A DNA stretch of 64,000 bases, taken from NCBI RefSeq assembly GCF_004919105.1, contig NZ_STGK01000013.1, positions 62,001 through 126,000 on the forward strand, written 5' to 3'. Positions 53,367 to 64,000 of the stretch are shown here, in pieces. The notes beneath the pieces are model-generated. The model worked only from the letters and a program-made list of their open reading frames with translations, had not been told where the DNA came from and ran no database searches. Position 1 is the stretch's first letter. Every line of letters starts with the position of its first letter. Made by a program: the position numbers and the translations under genes. The stretch comes from Nocardioides sp. GY 10113 (GTDB lineage: Bacteria > Actinomycetota > Actinomycetes > Propionibacteriales > Nocardioidaceae).

Positions 53367-53939
53367 TCAGCCGGTCGCGTCGGCCAACCACTCCACCAGC
53401 GGCCGCAGCCGCCGCCAGTCGTCCCGGACCCGGTCCAGCAGCTCGGGGGTGTGGATGAACGGCTCGAAGCCGTAGGAGCGCATCCCGAGCACGGTCTTCA
53501 TCCGGAGCAGCTCGAGTCGCGGGTGCTCCTTGTCGTAGCCCCGGGGCACGGTCTTGAGCCGCTCGCCGTGGACCTCGAAGCCACCGCGCTCGAGGTCGCG
53601 CAGGATCCGCTCCAGGACGGGTCCACGCAGGTCGTCGGCCATCGCAGCGCGCAACGCGGCCAGCCGCTCGCCGGAGGCCTCGTAGATCCCGGCGCCGACG
53701 CGGACGCCGGGGGCCGCCACCTCGACGTACCACCCGCAGGCGGGGCCGACGCCGACGAATGCGCCCTGGTGGGTCTTGTAGGGCGTCTTGTCCTTCGCGA
53801 AGCGGACGTCCCGGTTGGGCCGGAACACCTTGGCCGGCCCGAACTCCGGCTCCAGGGCGCCGGTGAGCGCCACCATCGGTGCCTTCACCTGCTCGGCGTA
53901 CACGGCCTTGTGCGCCTCCCAGAACGACTTGGTGTTGTC
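53367..53939 (-). pseudogene. DUF2461 gene cut at its 5' end by the integrated element
   Basis: The frame carries most of a DUF2461 (TIGR02453-type) protein: DNTKSFWEAHKAVYAEQVKA, VFRPNRDVRFAKDKTPYKTH, YVEVAAPGVRVGAGIYE and RLKTVPRGYDKEHPRLELLRMK. Homology begins abruptly at the conserved Asp-Asn (codons 53934-53939); the usual start (about 20 residues, including the FPxExLxFLxxLExDN region) is missing. Beyond 53940 the sequence is unrelated and leads into the integrase gene. A GTG at 53903 could still start a 178-residue product, but the native start is lost. Confidence 0.8.
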
Positions 53940-53950
53940 AACAAGCGATA
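53931..53950. other. Probable attachment-site junction (attL/attR)
   Basis: The DUF2461 homology stops here, and the sequence GTTGTCAAC (53934-53942) is near-symmetric around one base. Large serine integrases recombine inside such short symmetric words and sit beside one end of the element. The exact crossover dinucleotide cannot be set without the other junction. Confidence 0.6.
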
Positions 53951-53974
53951 TGGAAGACCAATAGAATCTGGGGC

Positions 53975-55768
53975 ATGACGCGCGACCTCAGCAGCAATCG
54001 CCCTGCCCTTCCCACGCGCCCAGCGGCATATGCACGTGTCTCTCTTGACCGAGAGGGCTTGTCAGTCGGTGTCGATGATCAGGTGCGTCAGATGGAGGCG
54101 CACGCCGAAAGCCTCGACTGGCCGAAGCCACTCATCTACTCGGACAACGACATCACGGCGTCCAGGTCCGATCGGGTAAGGCCGGACTTCGAGCGACTCC
54201 TGACGGACCTGGCCAGCGGCCAGGTGGACGGGTTGATGGTTCGGCACATCGACAGACTGTTGCGCCAGGTTCGTGACCTCGTGCGTGTGCTCGATGCCAT
54301 CGAAGCATCACCCCGCGAGGTCCAAGTCGTCCTCCTTGAGGGCGGGAGAATCGACATCTCTACATCGAGCGGTCGAACGCTTGCATACATCCTGGCCGCC
54401 GTAGCCCAAAACGAGTCCGAGGTGAAGGCCGAGCGACTGCTCCAAGCCCGCCGCCGCGATGCGCAGGCGGGCCGCGCGCACCAAGCGCTTGGGTATGGCT
54501 ACAACCGCGACCACACCATCAACGAAACCCAGGCGGACGTTGTTCGCGAAGTCGCGCGGCGCCTCCTCGAAGAGAAGGAGTCGTGGGGCGACGTCGTCGC
54601 CGACCTGAACCGGAGACGTGTGCCGACCGCTTGGGAGGGCCGGTGGACCGGCATGAGCGTGAAGAGCCTCGACACGGAGTGGGGCCGACTTCACCACCCC
54701 GACCTTCACGCGGTGATTCGCCTCCTGCGGTCAACGACAGCAGTCAAGCCCGCTGCGGTCGTGAAGGCCACGCGGACCGCCGGGGCCCACTGGACCATCG
54801 CCGATGTCAGGAAGCGTCCGGAGATCAAACTGCTCGCCGACTCCCATGTCGGCCTCACCGTCACCCAAGTGGCGCAGTTCCTGAATGCATCCGGCCTTTC
54901 CAGCCCGGCGCGCGGGTGGACCGGGACAAGCCTCCGGTCGATGATGACCCGTGGCGCACTCTGTGGGTGGCGCGACCATGCCCCAGGTCGGCGGACTTCC
55001 AAGACAAGCGAGAGCGGGCGGCCCACCGGTGAATTGGTCGCCAAGGGCGACTGGACGCCGATCCTTACGAAGAAGCAGGTCGAGCAACTACGCGCCCGCA
55101 GCAGAACCGCAGGTGAGCGCCAGACAGAAGCGCGCCACCTGCTGTCGGGTGTCCTCGTCTGCGGACGGTGTGGAAAGCCACTGGTCGGCGCGTTCTCCTC
55201 CGACCCGCGCGTGGTGGGAAAGCGCGGCGGAACCACATGGCGCTACTTGTGCCCGAAGCGGAAGAACGCGGCCTCCTCCGGCTGCGGCCTATCCGTAGCG
55301 GGCGAAGACATCGACAACATCGTGACCGGATGGGTACTGCAGGCACTTGCCGAAACAGACTTCCGCCAACGCGGATACACAACATCTGACGACCCGAGGG
55401 TGCGGCAGGCACAGGACAGGTTGGCTGGCTACCCCGACGAACAGGAGCGGCAGAACCGCTTGTTTCGGGCCGGGGCAATCGACGGCGTTACCTACGAGGA
55501 CAACATGATGGCGCTGCAGCGGAGGCAGGACGCCGACCTCACAATCGTGAACGCCGCGATGCCACGCCGACTGGCGCTGCAGGTCATTTCAGAGGCTCCC
55601 ACCAACGCCGATGATCTACTTGAGTGGTGGCTCGCGAAGGACCTGGCGGGGAGACGGCATGTTCTGCGGTCGCTTCTAGCCTCGGTGCCCCTCATGCCGT
55701 CGCCGACGGGAAAGGGGCGAGGGACTCCGCCGGTGGAGCGGCTCGGAGAGCCGAAGTTCCGCGTGTAG
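53975..55768 (+). CDS. Large serine recombinase (integrase)
   Basis: The 597-residue recombinase has an N-terminal catalytic domain (about 17-165) with nucleophile Ser23 in AAYARVSLDREG, DNDITASRSDRVRPDFERLL and GLMVRHIDRLLRQVRDL. The Recombinase domain follows (about 180-300: ALGYGYN, VADLNRRRVPTAWEG). The zinc-ribbon contains LLSGVLVCGRCGKPL (about 389-403) and YLCPKRKNAASSGCG, and the end is a coiled coil. It integrates and excises the element. The ATG at 53975 is 36 bp from the att junction, as is usual for such elements. Confidence 0.95.
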   Translation: MTRDLSSNRPALPTRPAAYARVSLDREGLSVGVDDQVRQMEAHAESLDWPKPLIYSDNDITASRSDRVRPDFERLLTDLASGQVDGLMVRHIDRLLRQVRDLVRVLDAIEASPREVQVVLLEGGRIDISTSSGRTLAYILAAVAQNESEVKAERLLQARRRDAQAGRAHQALGYGYNRDHTINETQADVVREVARRLLEEKESWGDVVADLNRRRVPTAWEGRWTGMSVKSLDTEWGRLHHPDLHAVIRLLRSTTAVKPAAVVKATRTAGAHWTIADVRKRPEIKLLADSHVGLTVTQVAQFLNASGLSSPARGWTGTSLRSMMTRGALCGWRDHAPGRRTSKTSESGRPTGELVAKGDWTPILTKKQVEQLRARSRTAGERQTEARHLLSGVLVCGRCGKPLVGAFSSDPRVVGKRGGTTWRYLCPKRKNAASSGCGLSVAGEDIDNIVTGWVLQALAETDFRQRGYTTSDDPRVRQAQDRLAGYPDEQERQNRLFRAGAIDGVTYEDNMMALQRRQDADLTIVNAAMPRRLALQVISEAPTNADDLLEWWLAKDLAGRRHVLRSLLASVPLMPSPTGKGRGTPPVERLGEPKFRV

Positions 55769-55814
55769 GGCACGTTGTTGCCGTCGACATCACGGCCGCC
55801 GTTTTCGGCAGCCG

Positions 55815-56048
55815 CTACGCCGCCTCCTGCGATGGGCCGCCGCGGCGGCGACCGGTGCCGTCCTCCCACGAGCGAAAGTCCGTCGCGAGACGATCGAGTA
55901 CCGACGCGTCAGCGACTCGCTCGGGGAGCCCCTGCGCGGCGCGGGTCGCACGCACCCGAACTTCGTAGTCGCGCATGCCTTGCATAATGCAGGCACGAAT
56001 CTCAGCCGGGGTCCTAGTGCCTACTCGTGCGGTCGTCGTCTTAAGCAT
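55815..56048 (-). CDS. Small hypothetical protein
   Basis: A 77-residue frame, mostly helical and charged: RTPAEIRACIMQGMRDYEVR, LPERVADASVLDRLATDFRSW, with a Gly/Arg-rich end. It converges on the integrase gene with a 46-bp gap. It is possibly a regulator or excision factor of the element by position; no family is recognised and no clear ribosome site is seen. The 194 bp between it and rep hold no convincing gene. Confidence 0.45.
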   Translation of the reverse strand: MLKTTTARVGTRTPAEIRACIMQGMRDYEVRVRATRAAQGLPERVADASVLDRLATDFRSWEDGTGRRRGGPSQEAA

Positions 56049-56242
56049 GGGCGGGCTATCGGCGTGTGGAACTGCCGGACAGGATCACAATCCAGAAGGA
56101 AAAGCCAGCGCTTCCCTCCCCGCCGGGTACATCGCATGGCCCCGGTGCGAGCCTCATTCATGTCGGGCAACGGCCGCCCATACGCCGCTGCGCCCTTGCG
56201 GTGCGCTGACACGTCCAACGACCCCCGCATCGCGTCGCGCCG

Positions 56243-57151
56243 TCACGCACCGCCATGGCGTGACACGTCCACCAGTCTCGGCGATGCAATCCGCGGAGCC
56301 GCGCCCATGCCTTCCAGAGCCTGATTGAGACCCCACGAGGTGAAGCGCCTCCGACCGGACATCACGTCCGTGTAGTCGGACCAGCGCATGTACCACCGGC
56401 GGCACCGGGCACAGCGACAGGAGCCGCCGCCATGCTCGGCAATCTCCGTCAAGGCGCGGAAGAGGCCAGTCGGGCCGCTCGGGGCCACCGGCGGCATGGT
56501 GAGGTAGTACGCCAAGCCTTCCGGGTCGACAACCGGAGTCACGTCGACGCTGTTGTCGGGCAACGCGACCGGCCGACCAAGTCGCCCCAACGCGACGGTC
56601 AGCGACTCGTGCCAGGCGTCTCGGAGAGTCGACTCGACCCGGATGGGGTCTGCGTCTGGCGCTGAGGGATTCATGAACGCCAAGAGGTGGTAGTGAGGGT
56701 GAAATCCTTGGTTCCCCCAAGCGACCTGAAGAGTCCGGTCGAACTTCCAGAAGCCCAGGGTTCGACGCAGCGCCGTTCCACGCCGCCCACCGTTCCAGAG
56801 ATGGTCGTATGCCGTTTCGAGCGTCTGCATTAGTGGGCCGAGGTCGTCAGAGAGACGATGCGAGAGGTTGAACGTAACAAACAAGACTCCACTGCCGACC
56901 TCGTCTGCGGCCTCAAGGCGCCATCTCAACTCGTGGCGCCGAGCGACCAGGCCAGACGCATTGCATGTGGGGCATTCCCAGACGCGGTCGCACTTTTTGG
57001 TCGGCCGCGAATCGCCATCTTTCGGGGGTGGGCCCCAAGGCGTTCGACCGCATCCCCAGACAACGCTGTCCGAGGCCATGCGTGCTGCAATCTCGCGAAG
57101 GTGGTGGAGCCGAGTGTCCGCAGTGTTCGTCATGCTGCGGGCTATCGGCAT
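56243..57151 (-). CDS. Rolling-circle replication initiator (HUH Rep)
   Basis: The 302-residue Rep has the actinobacterial plasmid Rep layout: a Cys motif KKCDRVWECPTC (Cys54, Cys60, Cys63; compare CGSVWxCPVC in relatives), GVLFVTFNLSHR (motif I), the HUH metal motif GFHPHYHLLAF (His151, His153, His155), and GLAYYLTMPP at the motif III position that would supply the nicking Tyr. A late Cys pair (CRCARCRRWY) is present. It would nick the element's origin for rolling-circle replication after excision. ATG 57151 or 57133 is the start; neither has a clear ribosome site. It is shorter than usual Reps (400+). Confidence 0.82.
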   Translation of the reverse strand: MPIARSMTNTADTRLHHLREIAARMASDSVVWGCGRTPWGPPPKDGDSRPTKKCDRVWECPTCNASGLVARRHELRWRLEAADEVGSGVLFVTFNLSHRLSDDLGPLMQTLETAYDHLWNGGRRGTALRRTLGFWKFDRTLQVAWGNQGFHPHYHLLAFMNPSAPDADPIRVESTLRDAWHESLTVALGRLGRPVALPDNSVDVTPVVDPEGLAYYLTMPPVAPSGPTGLFRALTEIAEHGGGSCRCARCRRWYMRWSDYTDVMSGRRRFTSWGLNQALEGMGAAPRIASPRLVDVSRHGGA

Positions 57152-57214
57152 GTTCTTGGCCGAGCCAGATGGCTATTCCTCTGCAGCCGAGGCCGTACCT
57201 ACCCGGTACAGATA

Positions 57215-57254
57215 CTCCCGGGCTCCCGGGCTCCCGGTCTCCCGGGCTCCCGGA
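57215..57254. repeat. Five 8-bp iterons CTCCCGGG upstream of rep
   Basis: CTCCCGGG occurs five times in a row (third copy ends T, fifth ends A), so a CCCGGG-type palindrome recurs every 8 bp. It lies 64-103 bp before the rep start. It is a candidate Rep or regulator binding site or part of the double-strand origin. Confidence 0.6.
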
Positions 57255-57295
57255 CTGGTCGCAACACGTCCACAAGGAAGCCTTGTCCCGGCGCG

Positions 57296-57553
57296 CTAGC
57301 GCACCCAGATCAGCACCCCGTACTCCGGGTGGGGTGCGGAGTCGACCTTGAATCGGCTCCATAGCGCGTGGGTAACCGCAATGCTGTTGCCGCCGCTGTT
57401 GACGTGGAGCACGAGCACGCCATCCGGCTCGGCCCACATGCCGATGAGGCAACGTGACATTTCATGCCCCGTTCCCTCTAGTCGGTTGTTGATTGCTTCG
57501 CGAGCGAGGCTGCGAATCTCGTCCATCTTCACTTCGAGCGCGCGACTTGGCAT
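57296..57553 (-). CDS. Small hypothetical protein with Na/Asp-box-like end
   Basis: The 85-residue protein starts MPSRALEVKMDEIRSLAREA and ends VTHALWSRFKVDSAPHPEYG. The N-terminal helix is followed by a beta-rich part (GMWAEPDGVLVLHVNSGGNS). The ATG has an excellent ribosome site (GGAGGAAACC), so translation is likely. It lies directly upstream of rep on the same strand and may be in its operon. The name is descriptive only: no family or function is recognised. Confidence 0.65.
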   Translation of the reverse strand: MPSRALEVKMDEIRSLAREAINNRLEGTGHEMSRCLIGMWAEPDGVLVLHVNSGGNSIAVTHALWSRFKVDSAPHPEYGVLIWVR

Positions 57554-57688
57554 GGTTTCCTCCGGCGGGGTTCGGGGCGGCCTGGATTGGCCGCCCGCCG
57601 CTCCTGTTATCGGCGGACGTGTCGCTTCTCTGTCGGACCTGGTTTGTACGGTGCCCGGCCCACCCCGATTGACTGGAGGAGCATCGCG

Positions 57689-58261
57689 TTGTCGTTCGTC
57701 GTGACCCGTGCCCCGCGTGACCCGAAGGCAGCCCTTCCTCCGCCGCGTGGCGGGGCTGGCGAAACCTGGGCGCTCGGGATGTACCTGCCTGGGTTTCACG
57801 ACCTCGCGTGGGGAGAGTCGGCAGCCGACCTAGTGGCGGCCCTGCTCGGCGACCCCGACTACGAGACCAAGACCGAGCATGAGCGTTTGGTCGCCCGCAT
57901 CCTTCGCTCCCTTCGCCTGCAGGTCGCCATACAGGCCCAGGTCAACGCCACCGCCATGCTCACCGGGGATTGGGCGGCGCTGCAGGAATGGGAGCGACAC
58001 GTCCTCAGCGGCCCACGGCACATCGCCCCCAATATGCCGGACGGCTTCCCCACCCGGCCCCACTTCAGCGGCGCAGACGTGTGGGATGCGCGCACGCCAC
58101 TGGTGTGCGTGACGACCGCGTGCGAGCCGCTCAACCCCGGGGTCCCGCCCATCCTCGGCAAGGACGACAACGTCTGGGTCATCGACCCCGTTGACGATGA
58201 GAGCCTCCTCGGCAGCCTCCAGGACCTCGGGCTCATCCAAATCCTCACCCGCGTGCCGTAA
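57689..58261 (+). CDS. Hypothetical protein, TTG start
   Basis: The 190-residue protein begins at TTG (57689), which has GGAGGAG 7 bases upstream; no ATG or GTG closer fits that site. It is acidic, with a helical middle (AADLVAALLGDPDYETKTEHERLVARILRSLRLQVAIQ in outline) and a C-terminal part LVCVTTACEPLNPGVPPIL and VIDPVDDESLLGSLQDLGLI. It resembles no family I know. It diverges from the small gene at 57296 and is probably an element-specific function. Confidence 0.65.
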   Translation: MSFVVTRAPRDPKAALPPPRGGAGETWALGMYLPGFHDLAWGESAADLVAALLGDPDYETKTEHERLVARILRSLRLQVAIQAQVNATAMLTGDWAALQEWERHVLSGPRHIAPNMPDGFPTRPHFSGADVWDARTPLVCVTTACEPLNPGVPPILGKDDNVWVIDPVDDESLLGSLQDLGLIQILTRVP

Positions 58262-58511
58262 ACACGGGGAGCGCCGACCCTCGACGCGAGGCATTGCATC
58301 CCCGAGTGGGTCGGGGGCGCGACATCACATCGGTCCTCACACCGCCCCATTCGCAGCGGTGAGGGGTGCCCCACGTCCCGATCCCCCCGTTGCCGCAGGT
58401 CAGGACTCAGGTCGGGCCTCACATGTCTCGCGGAATATCGCGGCGACTACAGGTGGTGGCCTACAGCAATCCCCTGAGTCCGCCGAAGTAAGGGCCCGCA
58501 ACTGCTGCAAT

Positions 58512-58530
58512 CCACGGCACCTTGCCGTGG
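58512..58530. repeat. Hairpin CCACGGCA-3-TGCCGTGG in a gene-free stretch
   Basis: The region 58262-58558 (297 bp) between two + genes holds no convincing gene. This perfect 8-bp stem with a 3-nt loop lies 28 bp before the RHH gene. It may be a terminator of the upstream gene or an operator for the RHH protein. Confidence 0.5.
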
Positions 58531-58558
58531 CCACGCACCCGAGCCGTGAGGACCCACA

Positions 58559-58876
58559 ATGAGCAACACGTCCAGAAGGACCGTTCGATTCACCCTCGAC
58601 ATGAACGAGGACCAGCACAAGCAACTCCGCATCCGCGCGCTGCAGGAAGGCCGACCTGCCGCCGAACTCTGCCGCGAACTCATCGCGGCGTACCTCGGCC
58701 AGGCAGAGGCCCTCGACGACGCCCGTCTCCGAGCGGCCTACGAGGCCGGTGCCCGCGCGGAACGAGAACGGATCGTCACCTCTGCCCTGCACCCGACCCC
58801 GCCCACCGGCCCGGAACTCCCCACCCAACGCGCACGGCCGGGACTTCCCACCCAGCCACCCGCCCCGAGAGGCTGA
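58559..58876 (+). CDS. Ribbon-helix-helix protein (plasmid-type)
   Basis: The 105-residue protein has an N-terminal RHH-like motif (about 6-48: RRTVRFTLDMNEDQHKQLRIRALQEGRPAAELCRELI), a helical linker (DDARLRAAYEAGARAERERIV) and a Pro-rich tail. Such proteins are copy-number or partition regulators, or antitoxins. No toxin gene is evident next to it, so a regulator role is preferred. The ATG follows a GTGAGGA-type site. Confidence 0.75.
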   Translation: MSNTSRRTVRFTLDMNEDQHKQLRIRALQEGRPAAELCRELIAAYLGQAEALDDARLRAAYEAGARAERERIVTSALHPTPPTGPELPTQRARPGLPTQPPAPRG

Positions 58877-58883
58877 GCCCGGC

Positions 58884-59078
58884 GTGTACGTCCGCGACGG
58901 GCTCCGCCCTCCCCGCCCGCCCAGGAAGCGACCGCCGGGCCCGGCGACGAAGACGCCCCGGCCCACGGTCTGGCAGCGAGGACCAGTCCACGCCTGGGTG
59001 TGCAGATTCCTCGGCTGCACATCCGCCATCTCGCCTGAGGGAAGAATTCAGTGCTGGCGGTGCAAGGAGCCGCAGTAG
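58884..59078 (+). CDS. Small zinc-ribbon-like protein
   Basis: A 64-residue frame from GTG 58884 (VYVRDGLRPPRPPRKRPPGP) with a basic Pro-rich first half and a Cys-rich end: WVCRFLGCTSAISPEGRIQC, then WRCKEPQ, i.e. C-x4-C-x11-C-x2-C. This could bind zinc. GAGAGG lies about 10 bases upstream. The frame is short and starts only 7 bp after the RHH stop; it is probably co-transcribed. Function unknown. Confidence 0.42.
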   Translation: MYVRDGLRPPRPPRKRPPGPATKTPRPTVWQRGPVHAWVCRFLGCTSAISPEGRIQCWRCKEPQ

Positions 59079-59119
59079 GCGGGACACCCGCGCAAGCGAC
59101 GCCCCACCAGAACTGCCTC

Positions 59120-59170
59120 GCGAACCCGCCTCGCGTGTCTACAGATGTAGACACGCGAGGCCGGGTTCGC
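59120..59170. repeat. 24-bp-stem hairpin with 2-nt loop
   Basis: GCGAACCCG plus CCTCGCGTGTCTACA pair with their complements (TGTAGACACGCGAGG, bulged C, CGGGTTCGC) around GA. The next bases repeat GCGTGTCTCGAGC. The stem is by far the longest in the element and lies between two small + genes. It could be a replication-origin structure (single-strand origin), a terminator or an operator; none is proven. Confidence 0.75.
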
Positions 59171-59321
59171 GTGTCTCGAGCGGTCGCATCCAAGTCTCAC
59201 CCGCGTCCTGTCCTAGTCAGGCGAGAACCTACCGCCCCGGAGTTCACCACGCCGATAGACGGATGGACCCCGCACTCCCCAGCAATCCCGCCGGTGAGAC
59301 CACCCCCTGAAAGGGACCCGC

Positions 59322-59639
59322 ATGATGAACCGACCCCCGATCTGCCCGGAGACCATCCATCTCGCCGCCAACGGCCGCTTCATGTACTTCGACATCGACG
59401 TCACCGACCGCCTGTTCTGGTGGAACTGCCTCGACTGCGGAGACGCCTACCAGGAGACACTCGCTGTGGTGACCGCCGCCCTCGACGCCGGGCGCCCTCG
59501 CTGCCCGGGGTGCAAGTTCGAGGACGGCCTTTGCGCCGCCAGCGGATGCTGGGACGCGGCGGACCTCGCCGTGGACTGCGACTGCGGAGCACACACCCAC
59601 GTCTGCTACAAGCACTCGGACCTGGCCATGGCGAGTTAG
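59322..59639 (+). CDS. Cys-rich small protein
   Basis: The 105-residue protein has three Cys clusters: WWNCLDCGDAY (C-x2-C), RCPGCKFEDGLCAASGCW and DCDCGAHTHVCYKHSD. These resemble zinc fingers; Cys and His account for many conserved-looking positions. The ATG (tandem ATG ATG) has AAGGGA 7 bases upstream. No family recognised; it is probably a DNA- or protein-binding accessory gene of the element. The 178 bp after it (59640-59817) hold no gene. Confidence 0.6.
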   Translation: MMNRPPICPETIHLAANGRFMYFDIDVTDRLFWWNCLDCGDAYQETLAVVTAALDAGRPRCPGCKFEDGLCAASGCWDAADLAVDCDCGAHTHVCYKHSDLAMAS

Positions 59640-59817
59640 CCGGGCGCGGGCCGAGTGGGCAGGCCGCCGCGAAGGTTGGTCATGTCGGGGGCTCCCAATG
59701 TGGACCTCGGAGCCCCCGACCGCGACCGTCCGTCGCCGCGCCGCACCGCACCGCGCGGCGGGAGGGACCGCCGCGCTCGGTCACCGCTGGGCGGACCCAC
59801 GCACGCTCACATCCGCG

Positions 59818-62800
59818 TCAAGCACCCTCAATGATGTCCAGTGGCGGGAGGCCGTCGACGATCTTGTTCGTCTCGACGGAGACGGTCACGACGCGTGCCA
59901 GGAGGTCGAGGATGTAGCGCGGCTCGCCGACCTCACGTGACCAGTCGTTCGGGTCGTTGACGATGCCAGACGCCTTGTCGGTCTTTATGTAGTAGCGGTC
60001 GATGATCCACTCGATGGCCGACCTCGAGCCGAGCATGTAACGGTAGGCATCCTCGGGGATGCCGCGGAGCGTGATGCGGTCGTTGTATTGGATGACTGAG
60101 CGGTCGTACTTCATTCCAGCCGCCTTCTGCTCCGCCGTCGCTTTCCCGAAGGACATCTTCTTGCTGCCGACCGAGAAGAACGCATACGGGTCGCCGACCG
60201 GCGCGACGTCGAGGCCGTCGAACGAGTATGCCTCGACCTGCTCGTAGCCGACATGGAGGTCGAAGAGCGCCCGCCCAGCGTCGACGAAGCCGCGGAAGTC
60301 GCGGACCATCGGGATCCGAGGCAGCATCTTCTTCAGGTCGGCGGAGTACGTCTCACGGTACGTGGGCGAGTGCAAGAGACCGTATACATAGAAGAAGATG
60401 TCTTCCTTGGTGGCCATTTCGCCTGGGTAAGCCGCCCGGAAGCGCTTGAGCGCCTCGTCCGTGATGTTGTCGATCCTGCGGTAGCCGTCGATAACCTCTC
60501 CCGAGCCACCCAAGTCAAGCATGCCGGATTCCTCGACCTGCTCGTACCGCCAGCGCGGGAAGAACTGGCCGCCTTGTCCGAAGTAGTTGAGGTCGGGCAT
60601 GCGATTGATCGCGATGGCCCCGAAACGCATGACGGTCCCGGTTCCGGTGACGTAGAAGCCCATGTTGTCCGACGCTTGCGTCGGGAAGATTGAACTCAGT
60701 TTGGACTGGACCTCGTTAAGCGGGCCGTAGAAGTACGCGCGGGAAGCGAAGAACGGTCGATAGGTAGCACTCCGGACGGCCAACGCAGAGGCGGGCTCGA
60801 CATCTCCTCCGCGACCAAGCCTTGCGCGCAGCGCACGCGACCAACTGATGTCCTTCGGGTCCTCGGAAACATCTCCGCCCAGAGCCCGGCGATACGTCAT
60901 GACCAGACGATCGACTGTTTGCAGCAATCGGGTTGTGGAAGCGTTGTAGCACCACGCGTCGCGACTGGTGGTCAGTCCGAATGAGGACACACCGAACACA
61001 CTTTCTGCGGAACGATCCCCAACGGGAAGAAACTTCTCGAAGTCGTCCCGGCGCTGGTTGACCCAGTCGCCGTGTTCATTGGGATAGATCAGGCGCGAGT
61101 CAGTTTGGAGAATCGACCTGGCCGCAACGACCTCAGCGACCTTCTCGATGGCGGAGGTGTTGTCACGTACTTCTGCGTACTGAATGTGGTTCGCGCGGGT
61201 CTCGTTCGCCGGGTTCTTAACGAGGACAATGATCGCGACCGTCGAGATGGAGCCGCCCGCACCCTTGTTGTACGCCTCGAAGATGGGCCGACCTTCAGCG
61301 CCCCCGGCCCTTCGATTCCCCCGAAGGTTGAAGACGTAGACAGAGGTGAACTCTTCTGCCAGCGACTTGCGAACGCCATCCGCAGCATTGGTGTCGAGGA
61401 ATCCGCCATTGGTGACAAAGGCAATGACACCTCGGTCGCGAATTCGCAGTGTCGCCCACTTGATCGCTCGAAGGTACGAGTCGTAGATGGTTCTAACCGA
61501 AAGGGAGGTCGATCTCGCACCATACGTCGATCGGATCGCCTCATCGAGGAACGGATACTTCTCGTTCTTGTTGTTGTCGTTGGCCGACTCTTGGCCGATC
61601 GACCACGGTGGATTGCCGACAATGACGGTGATGGGCAACTTCTTGAGCGCTTCGAGCCGGGCGTTGTTCTCCGGGAACACATTCAGGTCGGGCCGGTCGT
61701 CCGGCTCCCAGGACTGGAAGGTGTCGGTGAGGATCAGGCCGGGGAAGTCCTTGGGGTCGCCGGTTAGGTCGGCGTAGGTGGTCTCGATGTTGACGGCGGC
61801 GATGTAGTACGCGAGAAGCAGGATTTCGTTCGCATGCAGTTCGTTGGCGTACTTGCGGGCGAGGTCGTGTGGCTCGATAAGGCCGGATTGGAGCAGCCGG
61901 ACCATGAACGTTCCGGTGCCGGTGAAGCCGTCGAGGATGTGTACGCCTTCGTCGGTGAGGCCCTGTCCGAATTCGGCACGGAGCACGTCGTCGGCGGACT
62001 TGAGGATGAAGTCGACGATCTCGACGGGTGTGTAGACGATGCCCAACTTGTCGACTGTTCGCTTGAATGCAGTGGCGAAGAACTTGTCGTACAACTCGAT
62101 GAGGATGCGTTGACGGCCCTCGGCGTTGTCCACGCCCTCGATGCGGCGGCGTACGGAGGCGTAGAAGGTCTCCAGGGTCTGGTTCTCGCTGTCGAGGTTG
62201 TGCTCGTCGAGCGAGGCGAGCATCAACTCCATCGTCTGGGCGACGGGGTTGGTGGCAGCGAAGTTGTAACCGGCGAAGAGCGCTTCGAAGACCGGGCGGG
62301 TGACGAGGTGTTGGGCGAGCATCTCGATGGCCTCGTCGCGCGTGATGTTGTCGTTGAGGTTGCCGCGCAGGCCAGCAAGGAAGACCTCGAACTCCTTGGC
62401 CTGGTGGGTGGTCTCGTCGACCAGGAGTCCGTTGATGCGGGTGATGTGCGCTTGGGCGATGTCGGCGACGTCCTTGGCCCAGGTCTCCCAGTAGCGCCGC
62501 TCGCCGACCTTCTGGACGATGCGTGCGTACATCGCGTCGCGGAAGCCTTCGAAGCCGAAGTCGAGGAGCATCTGCTCGGTCTCGGGCTTCTTCGGCTCGT
62601 CGGCGTGGGTGCCGGGGATCTCGACCTCATCGGTGGGGCGAGGTGTGACGTCGGTGATATCGATCTTCGGCGTGCGGGACTTGTTGAGTTCGATCTGGTT
62701 GACGATGGCGTGGAACCGGTCGTCGTGGGAGCGCAGCGCCTGCAGGACCTGCCAGACGACCCGGTAGCGCTCGTTGTCCCGCAGAGCCTCCTCCGGGGCG

Positions 62801-64000
62801 ACACCGGATGGGATGACGACCGGCAGGATGATGTAGCCGAGTTCCTTGCCGGGTGCCTTTCGCATGACGCGCCCGACGGACTGCACAACGTCAACCTGGG
62901 AGCCGCGGGGCGTAAGGAACATGACCGCGTCGAGGGCGGGCACGTCCACGCCTTCGGATAGGCAGCGAGCGTTGGACAGGATGCGGCACACGTCGTCTGG
63001 CGTGGATTCCTTCAGCCACGCCAGGTGGGTGTTGCGCTCGTGGATGCCCATGGTGCCGTCGACGTGCGCTGCCTCGACGCGAACCCTGTTGGAGGGGCCG
63101 GTGCCGGACTCGTCTTGGAGGGCGCGGTCGACGATGACCGGGAAGGACTGCGCGGCGGCTCTGGAAGCACGGATGTCCTTGGCGAACGCGACGGCGGTCT
63201 TCATCGGCTTGAGCCGGGACTGCTCGGCCTCTTGGTCGACGGAGTTGTAGTGCTTGGCCAGGCCGTTCCAGCAGCCGATCAACTTGGCGGCGTCGCCAAG
63301 GGCGATCTCGCCGCCGGTCGCCATCGCCTGTTGGAAGTTGTCGGCAACGTACTGCTCGTCCACGGCGAGGACGAGGACCTTGTAGTCGGTGAGGAGGTCG
63401 GCCTCGACGGCGTCTCCAAACCCGAGGCGGTGAAACTCTGGGCCGTACCAGGTTTCGTTGTCCATGGAGACCGGCTTGGCCTCAGCGTCTGCGGCCTTGC
63501 GCTTGACGTCATCGCTGAACACGCGCGGGGTAGCGGTCATGTAGAGCCGCTTGGCGGCCTTGAGGTAGTCACCGTCGTGGACCTTGACGAAGGCCGACTC
63601 ATCGCCGCCTGCGAGCGTCACACCCGTGGTGCGGTGTGCTTCGTCGCAGATGATGAGGTCGAAGCCGTCAAGGCCGAGGTTCTGTGCCTGTGCGATGACG
63701 TCGATGGACTGGTAGGTCGAGAAGACGACCGTCATCCGCTCCTTGGCGTACTTCCCGACGGTCATCCGCTCCACGAGGGTCTTCGCATCGGTGGTGGCGG
63801 GTTCGGTGAGGTCGATGGTCGGCATGTCGGCGTCGTCGGTAACGACCTTCCGCCCGACCCGGACATCGGAGCAGACCGCGAACGGGCGGATGTCGACCTC
63901 CGCGTTCGCCATCCACTCCCGCAGGCTCTGGGAGAGCAACTGGATGGACGGCACCAGGAACAGGACCCGTCCACCGGCTCCGACGAGTTCCTCGGCGACC
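59818..64000 (-). CDS. Type ISP-like restriction-modification enzyme (helicase + N6-adenine methyltransferase), N-terminus outside the window
   Basis: At least 1,394 residues in one chain. From the N-terminal side: SF2 helicase with CDEAHR (63631-63648), LYMTATPRVF, and QSVGRVMRKAPGK (motif VI); then a methyltransferase with motif I DGFTGTGTFMVRL (about 61891-61932) and catalytic NPPW (61603-61614); then a target-recognition region to the C-terminus (VGEPRYILDLLARVV near the end). This order is that of type ISP enzymes such as LlaGI, where a Mrr-like nuclease precedes the helicase; that part would lie beyond 64000. The frame is open to the edge. It would methylate host DNA and cut unmodified phage DNA. 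It could instead be a related orphan fusion, if the nuclease is absent. Confidence 0.85.
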   Translation of the reverse strand, partial: VAEELVGAGGRVLFLVPSIQLLSQSLREWMANAEVDIRPFAVCSDVRVGRKVVTDDADMPTIDLTEPATTDAKTLVERMTVGKYAKERMTVVFSTYQSIDVIAQAQNLGLDGFDLIICDEAHRTTGVTLAGGDESAFVKVHDGDYLKAAKRLYMTATPRVFSDDVKRKAADAEAKPVSMDNETWYGPEFHRLGFGDAVEADLLTDYKVLVLAVDEQYVADNFQQAMATGGEIALGDAAKLIGCWNGLAKHYNSVDQEAEQSRLKPMKTAVAFAKDIRASRAAAQSFPVIVDRALQDESGTGPSNRVRVEAAHVDGTMGIHERNTHLAWLKESTPDDVCRILSNARCLSEGVDVPALDAVMFLTPRGSQVDVVQSVGRVMRKAPGKELGYIILPVVIPSGVAPEEALRDNERYRVVWQVLQALRSHDDRFHAIVNQIELNKSRTPKIDITDVTPRPTDEVEIPGTHADEPKKPETEQMLLDFGFEGFRDAMYARIVQKVGERRYWETWAKDVADIAQAHITRINGLLVDETTHQAKEFEVFLAGLRGNLNDNITRDEAIEMLAQHLVTRPVFEALFAGYNFAATNPVAQTMELMLASLDEHNLDSENQTLETFYASVRRRIEGVDNAEGRQRILIELYDKFFATAFKRTVDKLGIVYTPVEIVDFILKSADDVLRAEFGQGLTDEGVHILDGFTGTGTFMVRLLQSGLIEPHDLARKYANELHANEILLLAYYIAAVNIETTYADLTGDPKDFPGLILTDTFQSWEPDDRPDLNVFPENNARLEALKKLPITVIVGNPPWSIGQESANDNNKNEKYPFLDEAIRSTYGARSTSLSVRTIYDSYLRAIKWATLRIRDRGVIAFVTNGGFLDTNAADGVRKSLAEEFTSVYVFNLRGNRRAGGAEGRPIFEAYNKGAGGSISTVAIIVLVKNPANETRANHIQYAEVRDNTSAIEKVAEVVAARSILQTDSRLIYPNEHGDWVNQRRDDFEKFLPVGDRSAESVFGVSSFGLTTSRDAWCYNASTTRLLQTVDRLVMTYRRALGGDVSEDPKDISWSRALRARLGRGGDVEPASALAVRSATYRPFFASRAYFYGPLNEVQSKLSSIFPTQASDNMGFYVTGTGTVMRFGAIAINRMPDLNYFGQGGQFFPRWRYEQVEESGMLDLGGSGEVIDGYRRIDNITDEALKRFRAAYPGEMATKEDIFFYVYGLLHSPTYRETYSADLKKMLPRIPMVRDFRGFVDAGRALFDLHVGYEQVEAYSFDGLDVAPVGDPYAFFSVGSKKMSFGKATAEQKAAGMKYDRSVIQYNDRITLRGIPEDAYRYMLGSRSAIEWIIDRYYIKTDKASGIVNDPNDWSREVGEPRYILDLLARVVTVSVETNKIVDGLPPLDIIEGA

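Follow-up and report, generated by a model that had tools for sequence, protein, structure and literature searches.

The DNA analysed here, hereafter the window, comprises 64,000 nt of contig C3 (C3:62001-126000) of Nocardioides sp. GY 10113, whose draft genome spans 4.51 Mb in 36 contigs; another contig of the same genome, C36, also enters the analysis, and window numbering is used throughout unless C3 or C36 is given. A truncated gene of the DUF2461 family and the gene of a large serine integrase lie side by side in the window. The DUF2461 frame (53367-53975, analysed on the minus strand) matches PF09365 from profile position 12 to 208 of 208 with 150.5 bits. Its homology ends at the codons GAC AAC (Asp-Asn), and from 53940 onwards the DNA is unrelated and of lower GC content (65.3% in C3:115940-132500 versus 73.1% in window 1-53930, on the host side), an abrupt edge that the original prediction had recognized. 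There is no ATG, GTG, or TTG in the frame between this junction and the upstream stop, so the foreign DNA brings no new in-frame start codon to the junction; the first start is the GTG at 53903, within the gene. The neighboring integrase matches PF00239 (83.3 bits, cut-off 23.3), PF07508 (40.8 bits, cut-off 21.1), and PF13408 (35 bits, cut-off 25.3). Its ATG is at 53975, 35 bp past the core described below; the original prediction had given a distance of 36 bp.

We located the missing half of the DUF2461 gene on C36. A search pattern representing the lost 5' end matched two places in the genome, a second DUF2461 gene on C3 (DUF2461-2) and C36:377-403 on the minus strand. The missing start occupies C36:364-433, with a GTG at C36:433 that lies 20 codons ahead of a 10-bp core, and the order on C36 is ...CTCGATAG-TGGTGTTGTC-GACCTCGAGG.... 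The core TGGTGTTGTC is common to both junctions, being found at 53930-53939 in the window (attL) and at C36:364-373 (attR). On the 5' side of the DUF2461 start, C36 carries a tRNA-Gly gene, a GDSL-lipase gene, and a dCTP-deaminase gene, the last two assigned by Pfam. Both the lipase and the deaminase genes are on the same side in six of the seven stretches tested from relatives; the stretch from genome G036 shows neither. Joined in silico through the core, the two flanks, one from C36 and one from the window, give a single unbroken frame, which reads VTTFEGFSTAALDFYDDLEVDNTKSFWEAHK... up to the stop. Because the lost 5' end, the conserved synteny, and the core common to both junctions all coincide on C36, the break is more than a chance one, and the DUF2461 gene of the window is confirmed to be split by an inserted element. 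Both the other end of the element and the missing start, which the original prediction had left to be found, are thus placed on one contig.

The empty site was examined in relatives, using a comparison set of 215 genomes of the genus, the present genome included. A family search found DUF2461 in 212 of the 215, and among the matches listed, all but the window copy begin at query residue 1-3. Across the best-scoring 29 loci of relatives (24 from the genus and five from another family), the 46 nt spanning the site are unbroken in every case, reading GACGACCTCGAGGTCGACAACACCAAG or close variants. In no relative did an intact DUF2461 start stand upstream of the same sequence as that at 53940-53975, the arrangement named beforehand as speaking against an insertion. 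The DUF2461 start together with the core is present in 211 of the 215 genomes at no more than one mismatch, counting the C36 copy. This attB stretch is conserved across the genus probably because it codes for the motif DLEVDNTK, and it would therefore offer the integrase a reliable landing site. The original prediction was right that the attB candidate lies in a coding gene; the sequence that it proposed, GTTGTCAAC, covers the core plus the arm on the element side and so belongs to attL/attP, while attB itself is GTTGTCGAC.

Features of the split DUF2461 locus and of the inserted element (window numbering unless C3 or C36 is given)
Feature	Position	Strand	Basis and remarks
Host DUF2461, 3' part, split by the element; lacks the first 20 codons, start codon, and promoter	53367-53939	-	PF09365 12-208; relatives run on upstream unbroken; lost start on C36
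attL core TGGTGTTGTC, 10 bp; B arm left, P arm right	53930-53939	+	Same 10 bp at C36:364-373 (attR) and C3:132445-132454
Right attP arm (candidate), with a -10-like TAGAAT at 53962-53967, 7 nt ahead of the integrase ATG	53940-53974	+	Aligns with the left arm on C36 as an imperfect inverted repeat; promoter putative
Element, window part	53940-64000		attL/attR pairing; continues to the C3 end (133707), then across the assembly gap to C36:363
Large serine integrase, 597 aa	53975-55768	+	PF00239, PF07508, PF13408 above cut-offs (scan from 53972); phrog_95 integrase, E 3.6e-76
Possible replication initiator, weakly Rep_1-like	56243-57151	-	PF01446 22.0 bits, under the cut-off of 33.2; phrog_11698, unknown function
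Type ISP restriction-modification enzyme, 1600 aa	59818-64000, on to C3:126620 beyond the window	-	PF18135, PF22240, PF13156; PADLOC PDLC03597, 2101 bits
DUF2461-2, complete, divergent, 213 aa	C3:130355-130996 (68355-68996)	+	TIGR02453 120.8 bits, cut-off 105.4
Third TGGTGTTGTC copy, inside the element	C3:132445-132454 (70445-70454; L038 2446-2455)		Beside a degenerate DUF2461-start-like arm

The arms of the att sites were compared with each other (six arms of 40 nt, all 15 pairs, 2000 composition shuffles per pair). The two element-side arms, left of the core on C36 and right of it in the window, align as an imperfect inverted repeat with a gapped local alignment score of 11 (p = 0.0045, one of the 15 pairs). 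The other low p-values belong to the right arm of a third core copy with the DUF2461 start arm and, weakly, to the left arm of that copy with the C36 left arm. Imperfect inverted arms are expected of a serine-integrase attP, and the comparison leans towards them here. Since the element arms pair with each other, attP is taken to be C36 left arm-core-window right arm, and everything between the junctions to be one insertion. The large serine integrase would recombine this attP with attB after codon 20 of DUF2461; integration would leave the 3' part of the gene at attL beside the integrase and move its 5' part, with the start codon and promoter, to attR on C36. We infer that this integrase made the insertion and that excision would restore the gene; as the joined flanks restore the frame, reversibility is plausible. 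A -10-like box lies 7-8 nt ahead of the integrase ATG inside the attP arm (53962-53967), in the same place as in three loci of related integrases (L071-L073), and the integrase is probably transcribed leaderless from a promoter touching the att site.

We regard the insertion of a serine-integrase element of at least 18.1 kb into the chromosomal DUF2461 gene as very probable. Gene decay or a misassembly that joined unrelated DNA by chance might be suspected in a draft of 36 contigs with a listed contamination of 6.82%, but the lost start lies on C36 in its native synteny with the same core and gives an intact joined frame, which makes such an origin highly improbable. Several points nevertheless weigh against one simple insertion, and that contamination value is one of them. 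An assembly gap separates the two ends of the element, whose continuity is therefore deduced. The inverted repeat of the element arms appears only when gapped and shifted, its center then falling close to the core's right end; without gaps and with the core as anchor, the arms are identical at 4 of 25 positions (p = 0.94). No relaxase or transfer genes were found among the element proteins scanned, with a partial scan of open reading frames (ORFs) and the assembly gap limiting that result, and no excision factor was identified among them, no specific search having been made. A second copy of the element was not found either: the integrase relatives in the genus are only 38-45% identical, and C3:130999-132559, the stretch with the third core site, matched its own genome alone (1 of 215), so that no wider origin of that site was found. 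This third core copy lies inside the element, and its presence there means that the island may be composite, with two elements sharing the DUF2461 site, one of them ending at C3:132445, and attL and attR derived from different elements. The right arm of the third site is identical to the DUF2461 start arm at 17 of 25 positions, a value reached by 0 of 2000 shuffles, and the site reads in frame as the start-like M-P-P-K-V-T-T-V-G-L-N-E-D-L-A-A-D-N-T; its left arm shares 10 of 25 positions with the C36 left arm (p = 0.05). The copy may be an old hybrid att site, and the tyrosine-recombinase island PAISt is a described case of modular excision between an internal repeat and two flanking ones (PMC4057263). 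However, it is the attL and attR element arms that pair mutually as an inverted repeat, and the arms that a composite island would pair do not (third-site left arm with window right arm, p = 0.9965; C36 left arm with third-site right arm, p = 0.4375). This arm pairing speaks against two elements in simple tandem, and we consider a composite island unlikely.

Taken as one insertion, the element consists of C3:115940-133707 (17,768 bp), the gap, and C36:1-363. C3 breaks off inside a minus-strand gene with FN3 repeats, and C36:145-1, also on the minus strand and at the very beginning of that contig, has by eye the look of a secreted protein's signal-peptide start. The gap thus probably falls inside one repetitive secreted-protein gene, in which the ends of C3 and C36 plausibly meet. 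Besides the genes in the table, the cargo includes a small resolvase/invertase, an HNH-repeat/NOV_C protein, the FN3 protein, an SDH-type ClpP-like protease whose match is under NCBI's cut-off, and a protein with a phage methyltransferase-like match; the scan covered part of the element's ORFs.

The closest relatives of the integrase in the genus are those at 38-45% identity, found in eight genomes besides the present one. In the seven of these relatives that were examined (L071-L077, from G179, G154, G158, G020, G014:C5, G144, and G079), the integrase starts right at the cut end of one conserved coding gene, which reads ...AVKTA at the junction; the eighth, in G182, is a partial match and was left out. 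The split-gene fragment of G179 aligns with positions 4-89 of PF00437 (type II/IV secretion ATPase), scoring 21.2 bits where the cut-off is 24.9, and several of these genomes have frames lacking the N-terminal part among the matches listed by a PF00437 search; the gene may be TadA/CpaF-like. No DUF2461 match was present in the seven loci. With seven sister integrases beside one split coding gene, a coding attB looks like a habit of this integrase clade, judging from these sequences. At the level of the order, 6 of 391 genomes have an integrase match at E <= 1e-60, all of the genus itself, and the matches in phage records (104) and in plasmid records (five) are all below 60% identity. A short-pattern search of genome and viral contig collections, which detects close relatives only, confirmed no relative of the integrase.

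Other displaced pieces of DUF2461 were noticed in the genus. Genome G014 (L036 2501-2707, 7343-7978, and 13545-13990) has an intact DUF2461, a displaced 3' fragment about 5 kb further on, and a decayed 5' fragment; G216 (L065 3211-3843 and 9062-9281) has an intact DUF2461 with a displaced 3' fragment about 5 kb later. The displaced fragments in both genomes begin near codon 55-65, and the genes between look by eye like transporter and enolase-like genes. This suggests a second insertion site within DUF2461 at which the gene was restored; no integrase was noticed by eye at these fragments, and no family search was made for one. A duplicated 3' end also stands beside an intact copy in G036 (L037 4498-4911 and 4959-5591), and G176 has an extra 3' end (L081 7413-7532, with L082 1263-1895), a fragment at a contig end that by eye adjoins an ATPase-like gene.

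An intact DUF2461 of the element's own, absent from the original prediction, is the sole full-length member that the family search found in this genome. DUF2461-2 starts with a GTG at C3:130355, with TAGGCT 7 nt ahead; a TAnnnT box is found 5-9 nt ahead of the start in 29 of 31 native DUF2461 genes, with their starts picked by rule. The gene is 58% identical to the window copy, and its GC content at third codon positions is 0.736 versus 0.958 in the latter. It branches together with the G176 native gene (identity 74%, support 100/99), which adjoins dcd in the normal place. DUF2461-2 lies 14.4 kb inside the element, in the orientation opposite to the window copy and at neither end. It is not the displaced half of the window gene, as its full length, opposite orientation, 58% identity, and branching with G176 show. 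A mobile phage or plasmid subfamily was also rejected, as matches came from five phage and 28 plasmid records, all but one below 60% identity; around the best match, which a Tsukamurella plasmid carries, the annotation shows no integrase within 6 kb. Over the 24 nt that follow GACAACAC, DUF2461-2 is 62.5% identical to G176, within the lowest 2.3% of windows, and the same arm reaches 87.5-95.8% identity in eight native genes hand-picked from the 31. Five native genes (G062, G063, G064, G066, and G067), among the 17 genomes with the site listed, have a CCG-type arm as well, and the G064 native arm differs from that of DUF2461-2 by 3 of 21 nt. Natural variation among native arms can thus explain the arm of DUF2461-2, and recoding of its att region as an escape from the integrase, weakened by this control, is not claimed. 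Counts of att-arm patterns across the genus do not discriminate, since 215 of 215 genomes match, many of them by chance according to the reversed control.

Whether the element repays its host is the less certain part of our interpretation. DUF2461-2 might compensate in trans for the split gene as a rescue copy, which we put forward tentatively. The element as a whole could be specialized for a cost-free life in DUF2461, breaking a near-universal gene while carrying a complete, expressed replacement from a related lineage, a proposal that we hold with the same reserve; the core and the DUF2461-start-like arm inside the element may be the relic of an earlier cis repair. To incidental cargo, taken earlier from a host and without a rescue role, we give an even chance. 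The position of DUF2461-2 deep inside the element and its orientation fit cargo of that kind, as do its att arm, which is not unique among native genes, and the sister integrases that split another gene: a tblastn search with the 5' fragment, covering 0.6-9.8 kb downstream in the seven loci, found no spare copy there. That negative is weak because the sister elements may exceed the DNA searched. On the other side, DUF2461-2 is intact, has a native-like box before its GTG, and is the only full-length copy in this genome of a gene kept by nearly the whole genus, and a same-family gene is unlikely to occur by chance among about 15 cargo genes (15/4500 = 0.003, a rough post hoc estimate).

Several known systems bear comparison. 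Serine-integrase elements that break coding genes are well known: 6,207 large serine recombinases (LSRs) with predicted sites have been sorted by disrupted target gene, and 33 of them hit one coding site in a prolyl isomerase (PMC10083194). The element described here resembles these in having its LSR gene beside attL, a short core, and a disrupted target. We did not find DUF2461 as an integrase target in the openly licensed literature, where the supplementary tables of PMC10083194 may list it, and a narrow search of the same literature yielded no whole spare target gene carried in trans inside an element. The locus provides a defined attB/attL/attR set for a new serine integrase, which, with the landing-site start and core in nearly all genomes of the genus (211 of 215), would make a useful integration tool. 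It also offers a test case for whether mobile elements pay for a broken gene by carrying a whole spare, in a family whose function is unknown.

In the case of the dusA islands and of SXT in prfC, the island enters a conserved coding gene at its 5' end and the target is repaired in cis (PMC8409611). The present element shares the 5'-end insertion in a conserved coding gene and possibly the need to keep its function, but its junction frame gains no new start codon, and what the element carries instead is an entire second gene. Islands in tRNA genes (Islander) split the target while element sequence keeps its function (PMC4383910). The DUF2461 element is similar in splitting its target and in that element DNA may keep the function; in contrast, those islands target tRNA genes, use tyrosine integrases, and restore the split gene itself. 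In Streptomyces turgidiscabies, PAISt has one internal and two flanking recombination sites (PMC4057263), an arrangement shared by the element in DUF2461, although in PAISt the enzyme is a tyrosine recombinase and the site an 8-bp palindrome located at the bacA 3' end. If DUF2461-2 does rescue the split gene, the element would do in trans what dusA and tRNA islands are known to do in cis, namely repair the target.
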